Origin: Spinacia oleracea | Lineage: Eukaryota > Streptophyta > Magnoliopsida > Caryophyllales > Amaranthaceae | Assembly (NCBI RefSeq): GCF_020520425.1 | Contig: NC_079487.1 | Span: 109,092,141-109,156,140 of the forward strand | Direction: 5' to 3' | Length of the DNA: 64,000 bases | Part shown: one piece after another, positions 16,389 to 55,800 of the stretch | How positions within the stretch are numbered: the first letter of the stretch is position 1 | How the letters are laid out: each line of letters opens with the position of its first letter | Made by a program: the position numbers and the translations under genes | The notes under the pieces: model-generated | Told to the model about the DNA's origin: nothing | What the model saw: the letters and a program-made list of their open reading frames with translations, nothing else | Database searches by the model: none

Positions 16389-16846
16389 GGCTCGTTCGGT
16401 ATCGTTTTTTGTTTTCAGTTTTCTGTTTTTTACAAAACTAAAAACCAAAATATGAAAACCGCAAAATGTAGTTTTCAGTTTTTTGTTGTCAGTTTTCAAA
16501 ATTAACATGATTACAATAGATATGACTATTTTTTAGTTCATAATTCAATTTAAAGCATATGACTTATAGAACCAAAAAACCAAAAACTGAAAACTGGCAG
16601 TGATACCAAACGGACCATTGCTTAATGACTCGTTCGGTATCACTGTGAGTTTTTAGTTTTTTTTTGTTTTAAAAGTCATGTGATTTAGATTGAATCATGA
16701 ATTAAAAAATAGTCATAATTATAGTAATCATATTGATTTTGAAAACCGACAACAAAAAATTGGAAACTACTTTTTATGGTTTTCATATTTTTGTTTTTAG
16801 TTTTGTGAAAAATAGAAAACTGAAAACAAAAAATGATACCGATATT
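16389..16846. repeat. Two inverted copies of one MITE forming a large palindrome
   Basis: Copy 1 (16389-16616) runs from GGCTCGTTCGGTATCG to its mirrored end near CGGACC. Copy 2 (about 16627-16846) starts with ACTCGTTCGGTATCAC and contains the same internal landmarks in reverse order (AACATGATTACAATAGA against TATAGTAATCATATTG, and ACCAAAATATGAAAACC against GGTTTTCATATTTTTG). The copies face each other with only ~10 bp between them, giving arms of roughly 220 bp. They are non-coding. The class (hAT or Harbinger) is not certain from the ends. Confidence 0.65.
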
Positions 16847-28060: not shown

Positions 28061-29814
28061 GAAAAATAAAAAATTTGCTTTCACACTATAAATAACCTAT
28101 ATACTCTTACATGTTAACTCTGGAACATTTTAATCACATGACAAGTTGTATTTTTTTCTTTGTCTTTCTTACTTTTTCCGACTTAAAAAAATCTTGTGTC
28201 AAACCCAATGAAGCAATAAATATGGAGCGGAGGAAGTACTTACTTTTTTTCCCGATATTTAATCTACATATTTAAATACTCACACCATCCCATAATGTTT
28301 TTCCTATTTTCTTTTATAGCGACTCAAAATGATCTTTCCCTTTCAATTCTTCCTTTTTAAATTCATATTCTAGAAAGTACGATGAAGGGTCCTACTAAAT
28401 AAATACCTCGCACAAATATTTCCAGTTATATTTACAGGTCAGACTCATTGAAAGTGAGGGGGATTATAAGGGAAATCCTCACTTTCTAAAAAGCCCATCG
28501 TGAGGGGTTTTGATACCCAACGACTTTTATTGGGCTTAACATGTCATAAACTTGTTGTAGGCGTAACATGTTCCTATGTGGCAGTACTCTCTCGATATAT
28601 TCAATCATCATCGTCAATTCTTCACCATCTTGTTAACTTTTTCACCGGTTATCAGTCACTTAAGCCCAATCAAAGTCATTGGTAGTAAAAATGGGATTAT
28701 TAAAAAAATATGTCATATGTGGAATTAATAAAAGAAAATCGGTCAAATATTGGATTAATATTACCAAATTTCAAAAAAAAAAAAAAAAAAAAAATGTATG
28801 TTAAAAATGAAAAGGAAAAACAAGGTGTGTGATGCACATTCTTTTTTGGGGGGATTAATTGTATCCCAGTGGCCAGTGGGGACTCCACTTGCTAAACGTA
28901 CTTCACTACTTTGTGATTCGTGAAAGACTTGCAAAATTTGCATGAAAATGTTGTAATGCACTTTAGTGTCTTTTTTTGTTCACTTCAATTCTAATTTAGT
29001 TTGTATTCACATGGATGTACAAAGGTAACAACCAAAAAATAAAATAAATGTATACTTGAATAAGTTTTGTACGGAGTAATTAATTGGTGATAGTCCGACT
29101 TGAACCCAATTAAAGTTATTATAGTTGAGTAATCTATCTATATTTAGTCTATAAAAAGCGAAATTATTGATAATTTCCAAAGACTTGTATGTGGCAAGTC
29201 ACACTCATCAATTGGTGGTGTGACGTGTTCCTATTTGCGACAAATATACCATGCAAGGTGAATATGAAAAGGAATGACTTAAAATATGTCGGCATCTTCA
29301 CCCATGTTGGGCGGATTTTCCTTCTCACCGGCAACGTAATGAAGATCGGGTGTTTATATAATCTGGTTGTTTGATGGGAAGCCATTTAGGGATCTCGGTT
29401 CTTGTCTTTCTTTGTTTTTTCTATGTCTAAATTGAATAACAAATCTAGAACTAATTAATCATTAGAAACAAAATTTAGGAGAATGATCGGGGGAAAAAAA
29501 AACCCAAAGTTATAGCAATTTTGATGTCGTTTGTAGTTGTTGTTGTGGCTAAGATTGTCTATCTTCACTGTCAGTGGTGATTATACTTCAGGTATATATG
29601 TTTGCACAATTGCACGACCATAGATATATGAGTAGAGATGTTGGTGGTTGGAGGAGAGAGATTGTGTACGTGCATGTGTAGATGGAAGAAATGCAGAGCT
29701 AGCTAATGTTGTCAACTCACCATTGTTTGTGTAATGTTGTTACTTGTAGGAGCTACGAGAGAGAAGGAGTGTCAACTGCAAAAGTACCAGATTTTGGTAA
29801 CACTAACTGAACTA
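28061..29814. other. Intergenic, A+T-rich
   Basis: No gene is supported. A 22-nt A run at 28773-28796 has no LINE/SINE body attached that I can see. The sequence immediately left of 29815 is the insertion site of the mariner element. Confidence 0.4.
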
Positions 29815-30246
29815 CTCCCTCCATTTCTAAATGTTGTATCCATTTGGAATCTTGGGGGGTTTTTAAGAAAAATAGAATCTTGGTTTGTATGGGTATAAGT
29901 GTAATGATTGGGTGTAAGAGAAATGATTGTGTGTAAGAATGTGTAAGAGATTCTTTTTTAAAGATTAAAGTAAGGAGAGAGAAAATATTAAAGAATTATG
30001 GGAAAGGGGATATTTTCATTTAATTAATCAAAAATCAGAAAAAATCTGATTGAAGTGGGGACCAAAGTACATGAGGTGGATTTATTTCATCCAATGAGAT
30101 TACAGCAACAGAAAAAAACGGAGGGAAAACTTCCCAAATTGGGAAAGTCCACTTCCCTTTTTACACTTCCCTCCAAAAACAGAAATTTACCAAAAAGTTT
30201 TCCCTCCAAACTTTTTCCCTCCAAACTTTATACATTTACCACCCTT

Positions 30247-30254
30247 TATAAATA
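30247..30254 (+). promoter_or_regulatory. TATA box of the transposase gene
   Basis: TATAAATA lies 115-122 bp before the ATG at 30369, downstream of repeated TTCCCTCCAAA words (30166-30226). It predicts a start near 30280 and a leader of ~90 nt. Confidence 0.5.
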
Positions 30255-30368
30255 GGGGACAATTTCTACCCAAAAACCCTCATAAATTCCAACTGTTTTA
30301 ATATCAGTTACAACAACAAAAAACCAAAGGCAATAAATGCACTACAATTAATCAGCAAGGGGACATTA

Positions 30369-32015
30369 ATGGCTTCAGATCAAGAGGAGGACGAGTTCCT
30401 CGGTTTTTCCGATGATGAAGGAGACGGGACGAACTCTGATTCAGATTATGATGATGATGAAGCAACCCAAAATGCTGTAAGTGAAGTAAATGCTCATCAA
30501 ATAGGGGACTTTGAGCAAAATCAACAATTGCCAGATCTGAATGAAGTGGGACAAGAATATGCACAAGAATGTGAAGTGGGACCACAGCATACATCAGGTA
30601 TATCAGATAACCACTCAGTTCCATTTTTGTTTGATTTGAACATGCCAACACAACAAGAGTTCCCACCATCTCCAATTCATCAAACAGAAACAGAGCAAAA
30701 TCATCATAAGCCTAGAACCCCAAGGATTAACAACGAATTAAGGTTGGAAATCTTGTTGTTCCTTCTCTTAAGAAAAGAAAAGCATTCAGATGAACTCATT
30801 CATGGGACAAATAGGCAGGCTGTTATAAAGTTTGGTTACACAAGGAAGACAATTAGACTAATATGGCAGAGAGCATTGGCACATAAGGCAGCCATGGATT
30901 CGTATTTCTATGATAGCAAATATCACAACTGTGGGAGAAAGAGAATTCAAGTAACATATGAGTCTATAGCCTCCATAGCCATGGGGGATAGAACAACCAT
31001 TATTGATCTAGCAAGGATGCTCAATTTGAGTCCCACAACAGTTTGGAGAATGGTGAAAAGAAAACAGATAAAACCACATTCAAGTCCATTGAATCCAGGC
31101 ATTTCAGAAGAATGCAAGATGGCAAGGATGAAGTGGGTACTTGGTCTCTTAATGGACTACTCAATACCAAATGATCCCACATATTACAGCATGTATGATT
31201 TCATTCACATCGATGAGAAATGGTTCTATCTTACACAAAAAAGTCAAAGAGTTTATTTAGCAAACAATGAACCATTTCCACACAGGAAGGGAAAATCAAG
31301 AACTAAGATTCCAAAGTTCATGTTTATGGCAGCAGTAGCAAGGCCAAGGTGGGGACAAGATGGGCAGTGTGAGTGGGATGGGAAACTTGGTATATTTCCA
31401 TTCACAGATGCAGTGGCAGCAAAGAGAACATCCAAAAATAGAGTCAAGGGGACAATTGAGACTAAACCAATCAAGTCAGTTAATCAGATTGCAACTAGGG
31501 CCATGCTAATCAACTACCTAATCCCAGCAATTAAAGAGAAATGGCCACCACATGAGGGGGAAAGGGTGATATACATCATTCAAGACAATGCAAAGGCACA
31601 CATTTTGCAAAATGATCAAGAATGGCAGCAACATTACAAGCAAGATGGCTTCACATTGATATTGACTCAGCAGCCAGCAAACAGTCCAGATTGTAACATA
31701 TTAGACTTGGGGTTCTTTAGGTCAATTCAATCACTAATGCACAAAAAGATGCCTAAAACAGTTGAAGATTTAAGTGGTGCTGTGACTGAGGCATATAATG
31801 AACTGCATGCAAAGACTCTATCTAATGTGTGGATGTCACTTCAATATGTTGGAAATGAAATTTTGAAACACAAGGGGGACAATGACTACCAACTCCCACA
31901 CAACAAGAAAAAGATTTTAGAAGATGAGGGGAATCTGCCAGAACAAGTTAAGGCCCCAAGGTGGGCTGTGAATGAATGCAAACAACTTGTTGATGAATGG
32001 AGAGCAAATCAGTGA
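30369..32015 (+). CDS. Mariner-like (DD39D) transposase
   Basis: This is one open frame of 548 aa. The N-terminal ~115 residues are acidic and Asp/Glu-rich, with two DLN words (LPDLNEV at 54-60, LFDLNMP at 87-93). Residues ~118-235 hold the paired helix-turn-helix DNA-binding region (HGTNRQAVIKFGYTRKT, then TIIDLARMLNLSPTTVWRMV). The catalytic triad is D282 (HIDEKWFYLT), D406 (IIQDNAKAH) and D446 (CNILDLGFF). There are 39 residues between the last two, the DD39D spacing of plant mariner-like elements, and PANSPDCNILDLGFF is the family's signature. Length and all three acidic residues are intact. It would cut and paste the surrounding element, and possibly Stowaway MITEs with similar ends. The start is the first ATG after the TATA box and precedes the acidic region naturally. 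Confidence 0.93.
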   Translation: MASDQEEDEFLGFSDDEGDGTNSDSDYDDDEATQNAVSEVNAHQIGDFEQNQQLPDLNEVGQEYAQECEVGPQHTSGISDNHSVPFLFDLNMPTQQEFPPSPIHQTETEQNHHKPRTPRINNELRLEILLFLLLRKEKHSDELIHGTNRQAVIKFGYTRKTIRLIWQRALAHKAAMDSYFYDSKYHNCGRKRIQVTYESIASIAMGDRTTIIDLARMLNLSPTTVWRMVKRKQIKPHSSPLNPGISEECKMARMKWVLGLLMDYSIPNDPTYYSMYDFIHIDEKWFYLTQKSQRVYLANNEPFPHRKGKSRTKIPKFMFMAAVARPRWGQDGQCEWDGKLGIFPFTDAVAAKRTSKNRVKGTIETKPIKSVNQIATRAMLINYLIPAIKEKWPPHEGERVIYIIQDNAKAHILQNDQEWQQHYKQDGFTLILTQQPANSPDCNILDLGFFRSIQSLMHKKMPKTVEDLSGAVTEAYNELHAKTLSNVWMSLQYVGNEILKHKGDNDYQLPHNKKKILEDEGNLPEQVKAPRWAVNECKQLVDEWRANQ

Positions 32016-32233
32016 AGTATAGAGCAAGAACGAGAGATTACTTTTTGTGTTTTGGGAACATGTTTTAAAAATTACAAGAGCAAACAAAATGTCACTTTTG
32101 TAAGCTTGAATGAAAGCATCACATGTATTTAAAACATTTTGGAAGCAACATATCAACTGGAAGAATGAATGAATCAATTTGTTGTTGTTAATCTTTAGTT
32201 TTTGTTCATCATACTCACATATTTGTAGTTATT

Positions 32234-32343
32234 CATGTACATTGCATATTAACATATGATTTCAGGATTATTCAAAATCATAAGGGAACATGTACATTGC
32301 ATATTAACATATGATTTCAGGATAAGTCAAAATCATAAGGCAA
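32234..32343 (+). repeat. Two direct copies of a 55-bp unit
   Basis: CATGTACATTGCATATTAAC begins at 32234 and again at 32289, and both units end in AATCATAAGG. They are nearly identical. They lie between the transposase stop codon and the foldback array, where the transposase transcript probably ends. Confidence 0.75.
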
Positions 32344-32492
32344 CAATGCACCAATTTAATGAGTCAGCCATTCCTTAAACCATTAAGGGGACAACTTTAT
32401 GTTTTCAAGGCAACACATGAATTCATTTTCAAGGCAAGGCAAAGCATGGGGACATGTTGTTCTCAGTTTGTATGTGTTCATCATCATTGAAT

Positions 32493-32595
32493 CCTAAACT
32501 TTAATATCCTCCTCCCAAATGGAGTGAATGACTAACACAAACAGAAATGGGATAGAAAAGTCACTCCATTTGACAGAGGATACTAAAAGTGTAGG
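32493..32595 (+). ncRNA. Foldback 1 of 9 (family I)
   Basis: The left arm contains ACTTTAATATCCTCC and AAATGGAGTGA. The right arm contains TCACTCCATTT and GAGGATACTAAAAGT. They pair over about 37 positions with few mismatches around a ~30-nt loop. Shape and size resemble a plant microRNA precursor. Whether it is transcribed is unknown. Confidence 0.5.
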
Positions 32596-32626
32596 AAACT
32601 CAGGACATGCAAAATCACAACTCTAA

Positions 32627-32707
32627 ACACATCAGCTTCAAAATGGAAAGAATGAATATCACATCATTTTCAGATGGAATTTATTCCCATTTTGAAACCG
32701 ATGCGTC
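32627..32707 (+). ncRNA. Foldback 2 of 9 (family II)
   Basis: This is an 81-nt unit. CTTCAAAATGG on the left pairs with CCATTTTGAAA on the right, with outer pairing of CATC to GATG. The loop TATCACATCATTTTCAGATG is identical to that of foldback 3. Confidence 0.5.
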
Positions 32708-32844
32708 AAAAGATGTAATATTCGAGTTACTAAATCATTTCATCATTGAACAACTCAAAAAAACAAGGCCATGAGCAAGGCAGCAAAGGCAAGGTATTTA
32801 CTTACAACATACTTAGAAAGTCATATGCAAAATCACTTCTCTAA

Positions 32845-32925
32845 ACACATCGGCATCTAAGTGGAAAGAATGCATATCACATCATTTTCAGATGGAAAAT
32901 CTTACCACCTAGATACCGATGCGTC
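32845..32925 (+). ncRNA. Foldback 3 of 9 (family II)
   Basis: This is also exactly 81 nt. CATCTAAGTGG pairs with CCACCTAGATA. Compared with foldback 2 the loop and base are unchanged, while three arm positions differ on both sides so as to keep pairing (T-A to A-T, A-T to T-A, A-T to G-C). Confidence 0.55.
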
Positions 32926-33042
32926 AACAAAAGTAAAATTCGATATGCTTAAACCAATTCATCATTGAACAAAGCATGAAGAAGAGGGCATCAAGTACAT
33001 AGAAGCAAGTACACACAACCATCTCAGAATGTCCCCAAGCAT

Positions 33043-33140
33043 CCCTCACACAAACCCCATCCACCAACACTTAGCTCCCGAGAAGCATTATTCATGCTAA
33101 TGGCGCATGAGTGTTAATGGAATATAGGGTTTGAGTGTCA
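33043..33140 (+). ncRNA. Foldback 4 of 9 (family III)
   Basis: The left arm CTCACACAAACCCC...CCAACACTTAGC pairs with the right arm GTGTTAATGG...AGGGTTTGAGTG. The apical part contains GAGAAGCAT and CTAATGGCGCA, and the left flank contains ATGTCCCCAAGCAT. Both are shared with foldbacks 8 and 9 although the arms differ. Confidence 0.5.
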
Positions 33141-33244
33141 GCAAATGAAAACTCATCATAGATGACTCAAAACAAATAACAAGGCAGCAATGGACAAGGC
33201 ACAACAATCTCAGTTAGGTTGATTTACAGCATATATGTAGTATG

Positions 33245-33362
33245 TTTCTAAATTTTAACAACCTCATCACCCTTTCACAAAAGGGATTACATGATCACTT
33301 GTTTGTTTTTGAAATGAAATTTATCCCCTTTTGTAAAAGGGGACGAGGGAATATGTTAGAAA
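33245..33362 (+). ncRNA. Foldback 5 of 9 (family I-like)
   Basis: The left arm has CCCTTTCACAAAAGGGAT and the right arm has ATCCCCTTTTGTAAAAGGGG. The outer TTTCTAA pairs with TTAGAAA. The arms themselves contain nested complementarity (CCCTTT/AAAGGG), so alternative folds exist. Confidence 0.45.
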
Positions 33363-33486
33363 CCAAAATCTAAGATAATCAACAATTACATCACAGATCA
33401 CAATGATCAAACTCACACATGGGACATTAGCAAACATTAGGGTTCCAATCTCAGAGTTGTTGAATAGCATCATTGATCTATTGTAT

Positions 33487-33601
33487 CAATATTTTCTCAA
33501 CTTTAACATCCTTTTGCCGAATGGAATGATTGATATTCACTACTGATCATGTGAAATGACAATCACTCCATTAGACAAAAGGAGTTAAAGGACAAGTATT
33601 G
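33487..33601 (+). ncRNA. Foldback 6 of 9 (family I)
   Basis: The left arm ACTTTAACATCCTTTTG...AATGGAATGATTG pairs with CAATCACTCCATT...CAAAAGGAGTTAAAG. The outer CAATA/TATTG closes the stem. Arms exceed 45 nt with few mismatches. The word order parallels foldback 1. Confidence 0.5.
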
Positions 33602-33682
33602 AAACATAAATCTCAGGATATCAACCTTTAACATCATTGATTATCATTAACACCACAATCAAACATGTTGTTTAAGTGTCAT

Positions 33683-33767
33683 GGTGGTCCTTCCAAAGGG
33701 AATTGACAAATTGTGAACTATCGCATTGGATATTTAAAAATAAGTCAATCCCCTTTGAAGGACCACC
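33683..33767 (+). ncRNA. Foldback 7 of 9
   Basis: The left arm GGTGGTCCTTCCAAAGGG, continued by AATTGAC, pairs almost perfectly with GTCAATCCCCTTTGAAGG, continued by ACCACC. The loop is ~32 nt. This is the cleanest stem in the array. Confidence 0.55.
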
Positions 33768-33822
33768 TAACTAACAAAAGTAAAACATGCATGACATCAA
33801 AATTCATCTCAGATGTCCCCAA

Positions 33823-33932
33823 GCATCATTGAAACAAATTCAACCTACACACACTTAGCGCCTGAGAAGCATCATCACTGATACTAATGGCAGCACGAGT
33901 GAGTGTAGGTAACTTGAATTGTTTCTCAGCAT
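33823..33932 (+). ncRNA. Foldback 8 of 9 (family III)
   Basis: The left arm AAACAAATTCAACCTACAC pairs with GTGTAGGTAACTTGAATTG, followed by TTTCTCAGC. The flank (ATGTCCCCAAGCATCATTGA) and apical words (GAGAAGCATC, CTAATGGC) match foldbacks 4 and 9, but the paired arm sequence is different. Confidence 0.5.
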
Positions 33933-34039
33933 ATGAAAGACTCATCATCGATGTAACTTGAAAAAACACATCAGCATATGAAAGACTCTGCATATGAAAG
34001 ACTCATCATCATGTTAAATTTGGTCTCAGATGTCCCCAA

Positions 34040-34153
34040 GCTTCATTGAACCACACCATGTTCACAAACCATTAGCACACAAAAGCCTCATACAGCCTAC
34101 GGCTGGATGCTAATGGCGCACTGTGGTTTATGAAACATGGATAGTTTCTCAGC
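34040..34153 (+). ncRNA. Foldback 9 of 9 (family III)
   Basis: The left arm CCATGTTCACAAACCATTAG pairs with GTGGTTTATGAAACATGG. The basal CTTCATTGAA faces TAGTTTCTCAGC. It shares the ATGTCCCCAAG flank and the TGCTAATGGCGCA apical word with foldback 4, with other arms. Confidence 0.5.
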
Positions 34154-34381
34154 ACTGAAAGACTCATCATAGACCTCATTCAAACCCTAACATCACAGAC
34201 CAAGCATTCAGGAAAGACAAACAATAAGAGGGGACTTTAATGAAACTGTTTTTTTCCAATCACATGTTAAAATTTTATTCATAAACCCATCCCATATGCT
34301 TTCACCCCTCTCAAGGCAACACTAATCAACCAGCAAACATATGACAGTTTCAACAGGCAACATTATTAAATCAGCAAGCAC

Positions 34382-34456
34382 ACAAGGCAACATTCATCAA
34401 TCAACAAGGCAACATTCATCAATCAACAAGGCAACATTCATCAATCAACAAGGCAA
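34382..34456 (+). repeat. 22-bp tandem repeat, about 3.5 copies
   Basis: The unit CAAGGCAACATTCATCAATC repeats with a 22-bp period. CAAGGCAACA words are also sprinkled nearby (32400-32450, 34460-34480), so the unit grew from a locally common word. Confidence 0.8.
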
Positions 34457-34645
34457 CATGTTTCAAGCAACAAGGCAATAATAGAGGACATGAATACACT
34501 CCAAACCCTATCACATCATCAACAAAACAACAACACCCCTTGCCAACAACAGATCACAGTTGTTGGCTACTCCACCTTATGTCTCCACAGCTAACCAGCA
34601 ATCCAAATATAATTAAAAGAGGGTTTATAGAAGACACACTTATCT

Positions 34646-35772
34646 CTAAGCATCATCAACACCCTTAGGTGGCTTTTTTTTTATTTCATCTTCCTTCACG
34701 TTTGGGGACGAAACCGAACATTGCCCATCAGAAACCTCTGGACCAGCAGTTGTGTTCTCACACTCACCCACATAGTATAGGTCGAATGAATCAGAGTGAT
34801 TGGGTTCCTTGCAATAAAGAGGGGACATAAAATATGTTTAATATATTTCACATCAACTTAACAAGATCAAAGAACAACATCATCAAAGTAATCATGGAAT
34901 TGAACATCCAAATCAACCAAAACAGACCAACATTCATGGTATTCAACATGCAATTTAAATAAACTCATAAAAATCGAGAAAAATCAAGGGATCTCTAACA
35001 TGCAATTCATGAACTTCATCATTTAACCAAAAAAATCAAGGGATCTCTGACATGCAATTCGAAAATTTATCATTTAACAAAATAAATCAAGGGATCTCTT
35101 ACATGCAATTAGAAAACTTCATCATTTAACAAAAATTATCAACGAATCTCTGACATGCAATTCGAAAACTTCATCATTTAACACAAAAATCAAACATTTA
35201 TGGGACATGCATGATCACAAAAAATGAACCAATGTTAAATCTAAAACAATTCACAAAAATCATCAACAAATGAAAAAAATTCATTAAAATTCACAAAAAA
35301 TCTCAAAAAATCAGAACATGCAGAGTAACCCTAATTTTATTAGAAAACCTACGTTTCAACCAAAAATCACAGATTTTCTCCAAGAAACACAAAAAATCCC
35401 AAAAACAGAGTAAACCCTAATTAACTCGAAAAATCAGGAAAAAAACCCAAAAATAAGGAAATATACCTCATCAGATTCGTCTCCTCCAAAGAATCTCAGA
35501 TCTGCTGGTGTGGGGACTCGATCGTCGTATTTGGACTCCACCTCTTCACCAGGCTCCACTTCCATTTTCTCAAACCAAGCTTTGAGATAATTTCGGGTAC
35601 TCGTGTTCTCCTTCTGGGCCAACCTCAAATTATTCAGATACTCGCCAGAATACGAGTGCTCGTTGTTGGGACAAATGCATTTCGAGCCCCAATCACAGTT
35701 TGAGTCAGGAATTCGTTGCCCAGAAGTACCAACCGAATAAGTCGGAAGATATTTGGAGGAAGAGGATCCCAT
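34646..35772 (-). CDS. Second gene of the mariner element, unknown function
   Basis: Exon 1 is 35772-35467 (102 codons) and exon 2 is 34807-34646 (53 codons plus stop), in phase, total 155 aa. The donor GAG|GTATAT is good. The acceptor TTGCAAG is acceptable but not ideal. The protein starts MGSSSSKYLPTYS and has a small Cys cluster (C26, C32, C34, with H39 nearby) that could bind metal. A helical segment follows (YLNNLRLAQKENTSTRNYL), and the rest is acidic, with a Lys-rich end (EIKKKPPKG). I do not recognise the family. It runs opposite to the transposase and reads toward the foldback array. Plant mariner elements are normally described with transposase only. It may be a captured host gene or an accessory protein. 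The two-exon model is my inference. Confidence 0.5.
34982..35190. repeat. 52-bp tandem repeat, four copies
   Basis: The units carry AATCAAGGGATCTCT, ACATGCAATT and TTCATCATTTAAC at a 52-bp spacing. The array lies wholly in the intron of the element's second gene. Confidence 0.8.
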
Positions 35773-37024
35773 TAAGAAATTAATAAAACCCTAATAAAAC
35801 TCCGATTTTATCCCCAAAAAAATTTCACCAGAGAATCGATTACCAACCGGGATTTGGGACGACAAAGGGGACAAAACTAGAGGGGATCTCACCGAAATGT
35901 CGTTCCGGTTAAAGTTTGAGAACAATTTTGAGCGAAAACCCCAAAGATCTGAGAGATCTCACCAAAAAAAACGAAGAACAGGGGCGGAGAAGGTTAGGGT
36001 TTTTAGAGAAACAGAGAGATTTCTTGAGGAGAGAGAGGGAGACAGGAGGAGAGAGGGATCCGAAGAGAATGAGGAGAGAGAGGGTGAGAGGGACGGGTTA
36101 TAAGGAGAGAGAGGTGAGAGTGACGTTAGGGTTTTATTAATTTAATAAGGGAGGTGGGTGGGTTAAATGAATAAAATATTATGGGTGGGGAAAATTAGGT
36201 GGGAATATGGGTAGATTCTTTAGGTTTTTTGGTTATTAGATTGAAATATAAGGGTATTTTAGGAAAAAAAGTATGTCCAAAAATGGAAAGATTCTAAGTG
36301 GATACAACATTATGAAACGACTAAAAAGGAAACGGATACAACAAAAAGAAACGGAGGGAGTACAAGGTAACACCATTAACCTACAAATAAAACCCTTCGT
36401 AATATTAGTAGTAATTTGTCTAATATTTAAAAGTAACACCATTGACATACAAAAGTAACCCTAGTAAAATATTAAAGTGAATAACCAGCTTAATTTAAAG
36501 CCACTCTTCTAGAATTATGAAAGTAATTGAAATTACAAATAGAAGTAACCAATCACAAATAAAAATAAACGTCAGTAACTTTATTATTAATTGTGCTTAT
36601 TGTTTAAAAGTAACATTATTAACATACAAAAGTAACCCCTAGTAAGCTACTAAAGCAACATACTAATATTTTAAGTGAATAAGTAACTTGATTAGAAGTA
36701 ACTCTTCATAAACTATAAAAGTAATATTGAAATTCCAAATAGAAATAACTCGATCTTACTTATATTAGTAGTAATTGTGCCTATTATTTTAAGTAAATAA
36801 GTAGCTTGATTAAAATTAACTCTTCTAAAACTATTAAAGTAATTGAAATTACAAATAGAAGTAACCAATCACAAATAAAAATAACATTAGTAGTAATTGT
36901 GCCTATTGTTTAAAAGTAACATTGTTAACATACAAAAATCAACCCTAGTAAGCTATTAAAGTAACATTCTAATGTTTTAAGTGAATAAGTAACTTTATTA
37001 GAAGCAACTCTTCATAAACTATAA

Positions 37025-52898: not shown

Positions 52899-55800
52899 TG
52901 GTATCAGAGTAGTAAATTTCAGATCTGGGTGCAATTTCTTCAACTAATTTCAACAATGTAATATGAGTAAAGTCCTGTTTTCATCCTTTCAGGTTTGTTC
53001 ATCCTCAAATTCTTCTTTTACTGAAAATAGTTATGCTATGGTTTGATATGTTCTTTACTGAATTCGATTGAGTTTGTGATAAGAATCAGTTTCTACAGTA
53101 GATAGAATATTTGAAGTTGTGAAGTTGTTGATAACCTGAGCACAAATTTCCTTTCCTATATTCATTTCTGAGTTTGAATATATTTTTCTTCATTGAAATC
53201 TGCACAGAATGGAGCAACCAACACCACCAACCTTACCACCTAATCAAAATCTTGCATCACCTTTTTACCTACATCCTACTGATAATACATGCAACTAGTC
53301 AATTAGTTCCTATAAAATTCAAAGGAGAAGGATATGGAGATTGGAGAAGGAGTATGATGATTTCTATGTCATCTAAGAACAAGTTGGGGTTTGTTAATGG
53401 TGTCATAACCAAACCAAATGCTACAGATAATACTTATGAGGCATGAATGAGATACAATGATATGATGATATCATGCCTGTTGTTCAATTTGGACACAACT
53501 ATAGCCAAAAGTGTGTTGTATTTCAATACAACAAGGGAAATATGGGTGGATCTAGAGGAAAGATAAGGATTCGTTTCTAGACCACAATTTTACTCTTTAG
53601 AGCAACAAGCTGCTGACATTACACAGGGAGGACACACAAAATATTGCAAAGTTTTTCACATAAATCAAGTCTATATGGGACAAGATGAGTGCAAAATATC
53701 CTTTACCATCTTGTACTTGCAATTTGTGTACATGTAATCTGACACAGAATATTTTCAAGATGCAACAAGATCAGAGACTGATGCAGTTCTTGATGAAGTT
53801 AGGGGAGCATTTGGCCACAACTAGAGGTAATCTGTTAATGATGCAACCTCTTCCAACATTCTCTCATGCTTACAGAATGTTGGCACAAGAAGAAAGGCAA
53901 GGAGAAATTGCTACACCAGCACATCAGTCAGAGAGTCATGCTTTTGGTGATGATAGGAGAAGGTATAATGATTACCATAACAGAAACAACAACTACACTC
54001 CTTACAGAGCTTAGAAGTCACAACCATATGGGAGAAATACTTATCAGTATAGTAATCATTCTGGAGGTAACAAATCAACTGGATACAAGAAGCCTTTCAT
54101 TTACTTTTGTGATCACTGCAAGGTGAATGGGCATAACACTGAGAGATGCTTCAAGTTACATGGATTTCCACCAGGTTTCACAGGTTTTAAGAATGATATA
54201 AAAAACTGCAGCAGTTGCTTATTCAGATGAGGCTTATTATGATGATATGGCAGATTATCAACAAGTAGAAAATCCTAGCAACACAGATATTCCAGCAGAG
54301 GAAGGAGAAATTTCAGGTCATGCTTTCATGGTATAGGTAATACATATTGCTTTCTTACATGCTCACACTCTAGTTGGTTGCTAGATATTAATTGGTGCAT
54401 CAGATCATATGTGTGCTAGCCTTAGCATGTTTGACAATTATGAGCTTGTTAATGATACTAATGAGTATATCACAATCCCTGATGGAAGAAAGGTAGAAAT
54501 ACATCACAAGGGAACAATCACTATAAATGAGAGTATACAATTGAAGGGTGTGTTACATGTGCCTGAATTTCAGCTTATTATCTGTGAATAAGTTGTGTCA
54601 AGCCAGGCAGTGTACTATCTCATTTATAGCTGATAAGTGATACGTAGGGCCATTTAATGAGAAGGCCACAGGTTCTTGGTAATGTGAGATCAGGGTTATA
54701 CGGTGTGGAGTCAAGTCAATCACAACTCAATAAGGAAGCATCAACTACCTATTTCGTAGCCTCCACTTCAAAGAACAAAGATGCAGAGGTTTGGCACTTA
54801 AGACTTGGTCACATGCCTTTCAATAAGATGAAGATTATCATTAGTAGTTTGTCAGAGTCCAAAAATAATGATTATATTTGTCAAATATGTCCTGCTGCAA
54901 AACAACCTAGAAGTTCTTTTCCTATGAGTAGCATTAAGACCAATAAGATGTTTAAAATGATACATCTGGACACTTGGGGTCCTTATAAAAATAAGACTTA
55001 CAATGGTTGTACTTTGTTTGTTACAATAGTTGATGATTTTACAAGAACTACATGGACTCATTTACTGAAATCCAAGAATGATGCAGTGCCTGTGATTACA
55101 TCTTTTCTGATATGGTGGAAACACAATTCAATACTAAAGTTTTGTGTGTAAGATCACAATTCCCTAGAACTATGTGAGGGAGATATGAAAAGAATTTTGC
55201 TGGACAGAGGTATACTTCACCAGACTAGTTGTAGTGGAACACCACAACATAATGGGGTAGTTGAAAGAAAACATAGGAACTTGTTGGAAACTACTAGACT
55301 ACATTTCCAATCCAAACTCCCTATAATATTATGGGGAGAGTGTATTTTGGGTGTTACATATATGATAAACAAGATGCCTTTGAAAATCATTGGAGGCATC
55401 ACACCATATGAGAAGCTACATGGAGATAAACCTCTTTATGAACATTTAAGAGCTTTTGATTGCTTATGATATGTTTCTACCTATAAAGTCAACATAGCTA
55501 AATTTCATCCTAGAGCCAAACTTTGTGTTGGAGAACACTGCTACATGAAATGTGACATCTCTTTAGGATGAAATTTACCTACAGTTGATCATACAATTGT
55601 GGCTGAGTTTCCTCCATATAGTTTCCTTCCTAAACACACTCTTGTCATTCATGATCCAAACACCCCTTTCATTTTTCATATTCAAACCAATCCTGATCAT
55701 TCTATGAGTTCAGACTCCAACCAGGCTTCTTCACTCTCTTCTCCACCTCTCTCTACTCCTCATTCTTCACCTGAATCTTCTTCAATTTCTACTCCATATC

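Follow-up and report, generated by a model that had tools for sequence, protein, structure and literature searches.

Clusters of box C/D small nucleolar RNAs (snoRNAs) are well known in plants (PMC5122169), and Telo-boxes together with Site II elements mark the promoters of such clusters (PMC4660826). In rice, miR820 resides inside CACTA transposons and acts against OsDRM2 (PMC3459959), and microRNAs derived from snoRNAs also exist (PMC3476530). Among the literature matches listed, taken by their titles and abstract starts, none reports box C/D-type RNAs clustered inside a DNA transposon. PMC10886601 was considered as a precedent and set aside, since it concerns tRNA- and 5S-derived retrotransposons and the word snoRNA is absent from the text consulted. 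Here we describe an array of nine foldbacks in a 64-kb stretch of Spinacia oleracea contig NC_079487.1 (the window; positions count from its first letter). The array lies within a mariner-like DNA transposon, of which this one copy was analysed, between the transposase gene and a second, inferred gene (gene B), and is located 3' of gene B on gene B's strand, the minus strand. We consider it fairly likely that the mariner element carries, in this array, box C/D-type RNAs in a tandem cluster, encoded on the minus strand and probably contained in the transcript that begins at gene B.

Results

Folds and strand

A first-pass annotation, made from the letters alone, had described nine foldbacks between 32493 and 34153, sorted them into families 1/5/6, 2/3, 4/8/9 and 7 alone, and named conserved words as well as arms that change yet still pair. 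Sliding folds (120-nt windows, 40 shuffles per window) recover all nine at these positions and place all of them beyond shuffled controls: every foldback is covered by a window with a minus-strand z between -3.7 (hairpin 8) and -7.4 (hairpin 6), compared with 1.7% of the remaining minus-strand windows of the element below z -3. Repeats and alignments concur with the families, and the conserved words are present in the sequence. The foldbacks are thus real, but their arms had been drawn too short, as pairing continues up to flanking RUGAUGA and CUGA boxes; these boxes, the extended pairing and the preference for the minus strand had not been part of the earlier description.

Folding energy is lower on the minus strand in 9/9 hairpins, although plus-strand folds are likewise beyond shuffles. 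The imperfect stems, read on the minus strand, contain 41 G·U and 7 A·C mismatches under a scoring that weighs both kinds equally, and G·U is ahead in 9/9 hairpins. Base composition predicts 64% G·U, and the excess above that has a (possibly optimistic) P=0.001; control inverted repeats elsewhere in the window give a G·U:A·C ratio of 343:298 on the plus strand. Paired changes were counted in two families. In family 4/8/9, both partners are changed in one sequence or more at 15/50 consensus pairs, and in family 2/3 this holds for 4/42 pairs, which bears out the claim of changing arms that still pair. Lower minus-strand energy, the predominance of G·U over A·C and the paired changes together suggest that selection probably acted on the RNA fold of the minus strand, which is the strand of gene B.

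C/D boxes and unit architecture

A box C/D kink-turn consists of a canonical stem, a 3-nt bulge of the form NRU, GAUG facing CUGA, and the second strand of the stem. The word RTGATGA occurs 11 times on the minus strand of the array and 0 times on the plus strand; the shorter RTGATG occurs 19 times on the minus strand, compared with a mean of 4.4 and a maximum of 13 in shuffles. The box words are located at hairpin borders, and most hairpins can be assigned to C/D frames, listed here from the gene B side (all on the minus strand):

34022-34175, minus: unit 9; stem GGUC/GACC, C 34170, D' 34152, degenerate C' 34047-34041, D 34029
33805-33953, minus: unit 8; stem CAUC/GAUG, C 33948, D' 33929, C' 33829, D 33812; inner stem GAAACAA/UUGUUUC
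33683-33767, minus: hairpin 7; near-perfect hairpin
33446-33643, minus: unit 6; stem UAAUC/GAUUG, C 33637, D' 33616, C' 33473, D 33454; inner stem GAUUUAU/AUAGAUC
33204-33401, minus: unit 5; stem GUGAUC/GAUUGU (3/6 pairs G-U), C 33394, D 33213
33017-33167, minus: unit 4; stem AGUCAUC/GAUGGUU, C 33159, D' 33141, degenerate C' 33045-33039, D 33027
32825-32968, minus: unit 3; C 32965, with CUGA 32891 and AUGAUG 32885 at the apex
32456-32754, minus: units 2 and 1 in one C/D frame; stem GUUGUUC/GAACAAC (7 bp), C 32746, D 32466

Units 4, 5, 6, 8 and 9 and the 2+1 frame each have a box C (RUGAUGA), the last base of which varies in units 5 and 6, and a box D (CUGA). Units 4, 6, 8 and 9 follow the order C, guide, D', long hairpin, C', guide, D, with guide-like stretches of 10-15 nt, box C/D snoRNAs having guides of about 10-20 nt; the internal D' and C' boxes are strict in units 6 and 8, and C' is degenerate in units 4 and 9. 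In unit 9, whose long hairpin is flanked by D' and C', D 34029 can pair with a further C candidate at 34196 as well. Units 2 and 3 have CUGA and AUGAUG together at the hairpin tip, reminiscent of the short C'/D' loop in RNAs of archaea. A partial additional C-guide-D' block (TGATGATGAGTCTTTCATATG...) is seen at 33970-34012, between units 8 and 9, perhaps a trace of recent unit turnover.

The C and D words are positioned such that some of them can form kink-turn stems, defined here as at least 4 pairs, at least 3 of them Watson-Crick, across a 3-nt bulge. Such stems are found for 9/35 C-D pairs of the array, 1/18 pairs in the remainder of the element and, outside the element, 1/33 pairs on the plus and 1/57 on the minus strand (2/90 in total; Fisher P=0.00016 for the array against the outside). 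The rate at random positions is 1.8%, 1000 shuffles yield a mean of 0.1 and a maximum of 2, and permuting the flanks among boxes gives P=0.0003. With RTGATG, the 3-nt bulge alone yields stems, and bulges of 1, 2, 4 or 5 nt give 0/35 each. The terminal stems of the unit frames differ from each other: GGUC/GACC (unit 9), CAUC/GAUG (units 8 and 4), AAUC/GAUU (unit 6), GAUC/GAUU (unit 5) and GUUGUUC/GAACAAC (2+1). Inner stems between D and C occur in 4/37 pairs, and the two of 7 bp are the D'-C' stems of units 8 and 6.

Spacing points in the same direction. A module of C, 8-16 nt and D is present at 7 D boxes on the minus strand of the 1.86-kb array; it occurs 0 times on the plus strand of the array, 0 times in the rest of the element and 2 times in 114,900 nt outside, with a mean of 0.29 and a maximum of 4 in 2000 shuffles. 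Among 726 word pairs in this test, TGATG/CTGA ties for first.

Conservation within families

Segment-wise conservation was measured in family 4/8/9 and judged by alignment in family 2/3. Within family 4/8/9, identity is 100% for the C, D' and D boxes, 75-83% for guide 1, 92-100% for guide 2, 55-76% for the tip, 43-64% for the hairpin arms and, lower than the arms, 40-50% for the terminal stem region. The two members of family 2/3 resemble each other in the arms as well as in the tip. The pattern in 4/8/9 is what one would expect if boxes and guides were at work and stems needed only to pair. In a microRNA family, the mature arm should stay conserved, so the changing arms look structural or free to change; a mature arm more conserved than its flanks was not found in family 4/8/9. 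The first-pass annotation had recognized a pattern of microRNA precursors. Constant flanks, arms that change yet pair, hints of RNA-level selection and folds that would pass plant microRNA rules are indeed there, but the constant parts turn out to be box C, box D and the 10-15 nt beside D and D', arranged as in box C/D RNAs.

Guides, promoter words and database matches

Telo-boxes (AAACCCTA) occur 7 times in the element, all within 33125-36134, and 6 times in the 57 kb outside. Three of them, in either orientation, fall in the gene B leader or upstream of it. The element has two Site II words, one in gene B exon 1 and one in the transposase.

A match to a described family is not required of every C/D RNA. 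Sub-threshold Rfam matches to two C/D snoRNAs and several MIR families scored below gathering and were treated as chance. When the guide-like stretches were compared with unverified 18S and 25S ribosomal RNA (rRNA) sequences, the two sites with runs of 12 or 13 pairs both included the fifth position; one is D' of unit 4 and the other lies at 34211, where a kink-turn partner is lacking. With these rRNA sequences, the second guide, CUUGGGGACAU, which is conserved, forms 9 contiguous pairs at most. Against the element itself, guides at 13/16 CUGA sites have a longest run of 10 nt outside the guides themselves and their paralogues. Guide CUUGGGGACAU (33807-34042) contains GGGGAC, and the complement GUCCCC recurs in the minus-strand sequence of the element; one GUCCCC, for example, is found some twelve nt ahead of the 3' splice site inferred for gene B (34821), which could be coincidence. 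A comparison of the array with the window returned its own copies, plus matches of 14-19 nt at E values of 0.09-0.35. An 18-nt conserved word had one match in a viral contig, which, given a rough estimate of the collection size, was judged chance and not used.

The transposon and its surroundings

The features of the element outside the array are as follows:

29813-36362: mariner-like DNA transposon; TA at each end, similar termini TACTCCCTCC(A/G)TTTC... (terminal comparison)
30369-32015, plus: transposase open reading frame (ORF), 548 aa, uninterrupted; HIDEKWF, IIQDNAKAH and NILDLGFF
35467-35772, minus: gene B exon 1 (inferred), 102 aa; open frame followed by a GT donor
34646-34807, minus: gene B exon 2 including the stop (inferred); open frame preceded by an AG acceptor
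35786, 35995 and 36127 (35786-36134), either orientation: three AAACCCTA Telo-boxes in the gene B leader and upstream region

The mariner context proposed earlier is borne out by the intact transposase ORF and by termini at about 29813 and 36362, where TA is accompanied by similar CTCCCTCC sequences. By eye, 39 residues separate the last two D of the transposase, which we take to be the DD39D signature; transposase, TA and inverted termini together make this a mariner-like element. In Pfam, the transposase matches helix-turn-helix (HTH) families alone (HTH_24 above the cut-off, a Tc3-type HTH below it), and no match was found in the PDB. The exons and splice sites of gene B were read by eye from the sequence; exon 1, the part covered by the Pfam search, had no match there.

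The most enriched 6-mer of the element is GGGGAC, with 15 copies on the plus and 3 on the minus strand, compared with 5 on both strands across the 57 kb outside, and CAAGGCA occurs 12 times on the plus strand of the element versus 0 on the plus strand outside. The VANC anti-silencing proteins of VANDAL elements have target motifs (PMC5735166), which these enriched short words resemble; by analogy, gene B could be a VANC-like anti-silencing factor. Within the inferred gene B intron, 34979-35193 holds about four copies of a 52-bp tandem repeat, and further repeats are found at 34382-34478 (22 bp) and 32234-32345 (55 bp). Elsewhere, the window contains presenilin and PRA1 genes, a strong inverted repeat at 16521 (self-complementarity score 127), perhaps a miniature inverted-repeat transposable element (MITE), and at 54657-55151 an ORF that by eye resembles a Copia integrase fragment.

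Discussion

Minus-strand hairpins, kink-turn C/D boxes with pairing terminal stems, and guide-like stretches of 10-15 nt beside D and D' make box C/D-type RNAs a likely, though not proven, interpretation of this array. They suggest a model in which a single minus-strand transcript would start at gene B. Host 15.5K/Snu13, NOP56/58 and fibrillarin would bind the kink-turns, the long transcript would be trimmed to the terminal stems, and the outcome would be stable nuclear RNAs. The hairpins may be diced as well, as a side effect or as a second function. Because the arms would need only to pair, this model accounts for paired changes in the arms while guides and boxes are kept.

Several observations weigh against a box C/D cluster, or at least against the strength of the figures given for it. 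The idea was prompted by units 4, 8 and 9, ahead of any test. Independence does not hold for the nine kink-turn hits, among which five independent different stems were counted. Six of the nine pairs are unit frames, but three are alternative or cross-unit pairings, namely the additional hits at 34196 (the second C of unit 9), 33878 (the unit 8 tip) and 33473 (the unit 6 C' pairing with the D of unit 5); likewise, 2/4 pairs with D-C inner stems are cross-unit. The looser word TGATG gives stems at other bulges too (2/40 and 1/40, versus 9/40 at 3 nt). In an open search of all 4-mer pairs with bulges of 0-4 nt, the kink-turn ranks 23rd by binomial score of raw hits, 17th by independent stems and 96th of 2892 by the binomial score of the latter. 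C' is just 57-86% conserved in family 4/8/9. Hairpin 7 has no recognizable C/D boxes, unit 3 no final D box and, by eye, unit 1 no good C box and unit 5 no good D' (a degenerate CUUA at 33374), with internal D' and C' not found in the latter. Guide strands within one unit can partly pair with each other. Upstream of gene B there is no Site II box, Rfam finds no snoRNA at gathering score in 29500-36700 (the best, snoR31, has 31.3 bits versus 45), and complementarity of at least 12 nt to the unverified 18S or 25S rRNA sequences is seen at 2/16 CUGA sites. As to the strand, hairpin 8 is further from shuffles on the plus (z -6.2) than on the minus strand (-3.7), as is hairpin 7 in one window (plus -6.6, minus -5.4). 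The 50:50 binomial P of 6e-7 for G·U versus A·C overstates the evidence, given how far individual control inverted repeats differ, e.g. 16:2 and 0:7, and owing to this scatter even the composition-adjusted P=0.001 may remain optimistic.

The plant microRNA rule asks for a 21-22 nt duplex with at most 5 mismatches. On the minus strand, 9/9 hairpins include 21 consecutive nt of which 0-4 are unpaired, the asymmetry being 3 at most, and on the plus strand 9/9 pass as well, with 1-5 unpaired. The array could be a precursor cluster from which Dicer-like enzymes cut RNAs of 21-24 nt, the C/D-like flanks being accidental or shaping the lower stem. The strand-specific G-U excess would fit, and transposon-borne miR820 offers a precedent (PMC3459959). 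We nevertheless regard this explanation as unlikely: the arms at 43-64% are among the least conserved parts of family 4/8/9, only the terminal stem region being lower, no target can be named, and the box C/D statistics would have to be coincidence. A combination, in which the hairpins are protected by C/D ribonucleoproteins and a subset of them is cut to small RNAs, would do justice to the presence of C/D and microRNA-like features in the same units, and plant sno-miRNA genes (PMC4660826) and a C/D-derived microRNA of Giardia (PMC3476530) are known. It seems to us quite improbable, as the plant cases, in the text consulted, are separate snoRNA and microRNA units of one precursor and not a hairpin within a C/D frame. 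As a more far-reaching variant of the C/D interpretation, the element might encode a tandem dual-guide C/D ribonucleoprotein array of TIGR-like architecture that uses host NOP proteins, with paired guides directing complexes to host or element RNA or DNA in favour of the transposon, and the hairpin serving as scaffold or small-RNA reservoir; we hold this to be rather unlikely.

Tandem duplication and gene conversion between arms might keep palindromes for replication or transposase binding. The families are clearly born from duplication, the element is rich in short direct repeats and enriched words, and plus-strand folds also exceed shuffles. However, G·U over A·C bias, lower energy on one strand in 9/9 hairpins and boxes on one strand only make a purely DNA-level origin very unlikely. 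Gene conversion alone, which had been offered as a way of keeping the arms matched, would not be expected to produce a G-U excess over A-C on one strand. Capture of a host snoRNA cluster by the transposon would agree with the clustered, Telo-box-driven arrangement of plant snoRNAs and with the Telo-boxes near gene B, but appears extremely unlikely: no described snoRNA family reaches threshold, the conserved guide has no long match in the unverified rRNA sequences, and long hairpins are unusual among snoRNAs.

If the array is indeed a cluster of box C/D-type RNAs, a selfish element would have gained access to nucleolar or Cajal-body machinery and a new means of sheltering or deploying RNA, and the array would be a natural case of microRNA-like hairpins within C/D frames. 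Because an Arabidopsis promoter screen excluded 132 loci that bore signatures of transposons (PMC4660826), genes of this kind may have escaped notice, which suggests that snoRNA screens discarding transposon loci could overlook them.

Comparison with known systems

With rice miR820 in CACTA elements (PMC3459959), the array shares a microRNA-type hairpin RNA inside a DNA transposon; miR820, however, is one family with a named host target, OsDRM2, whereas the array comprises nine hairpins with changing arms, mostly with C/D boxes. The dicistronic snoRNA-miRNA genes of Arabidopsis (PMC4660826) likewise combine snoRNA and microRNA-like features in one transcript, but as separate units of one precursor, where the array has the hairpin inside the C/D frame. 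TIGR stem-loop arrays and the bridge RNAs of IS110 (PMC12045711) are prokaryotic and have their own Nop-domain protein, none of which was recognized in the element in Pfam searches of the transposase and gene B exon 1; in common with the array, they have C/D-flanked dual-guide units, in phages, bacteria and transposons, and some TIGR systems have tandem stem-loop units as well. The array differs from the plant polycistronic C/D clusters (PMC5122169, PMC4660826) by its location inside a DNA transposon, by the long hairpin between D' and C', and by having no recognized family or established rRNA target and no Site II element upstream. What it shares with them are a tandem arrangement of same-strand units, the boxes C (RUGAUGA) and D (CUGA), a kink-turn terminal stem, guides beside D and D', and Telo-boxes near the start.
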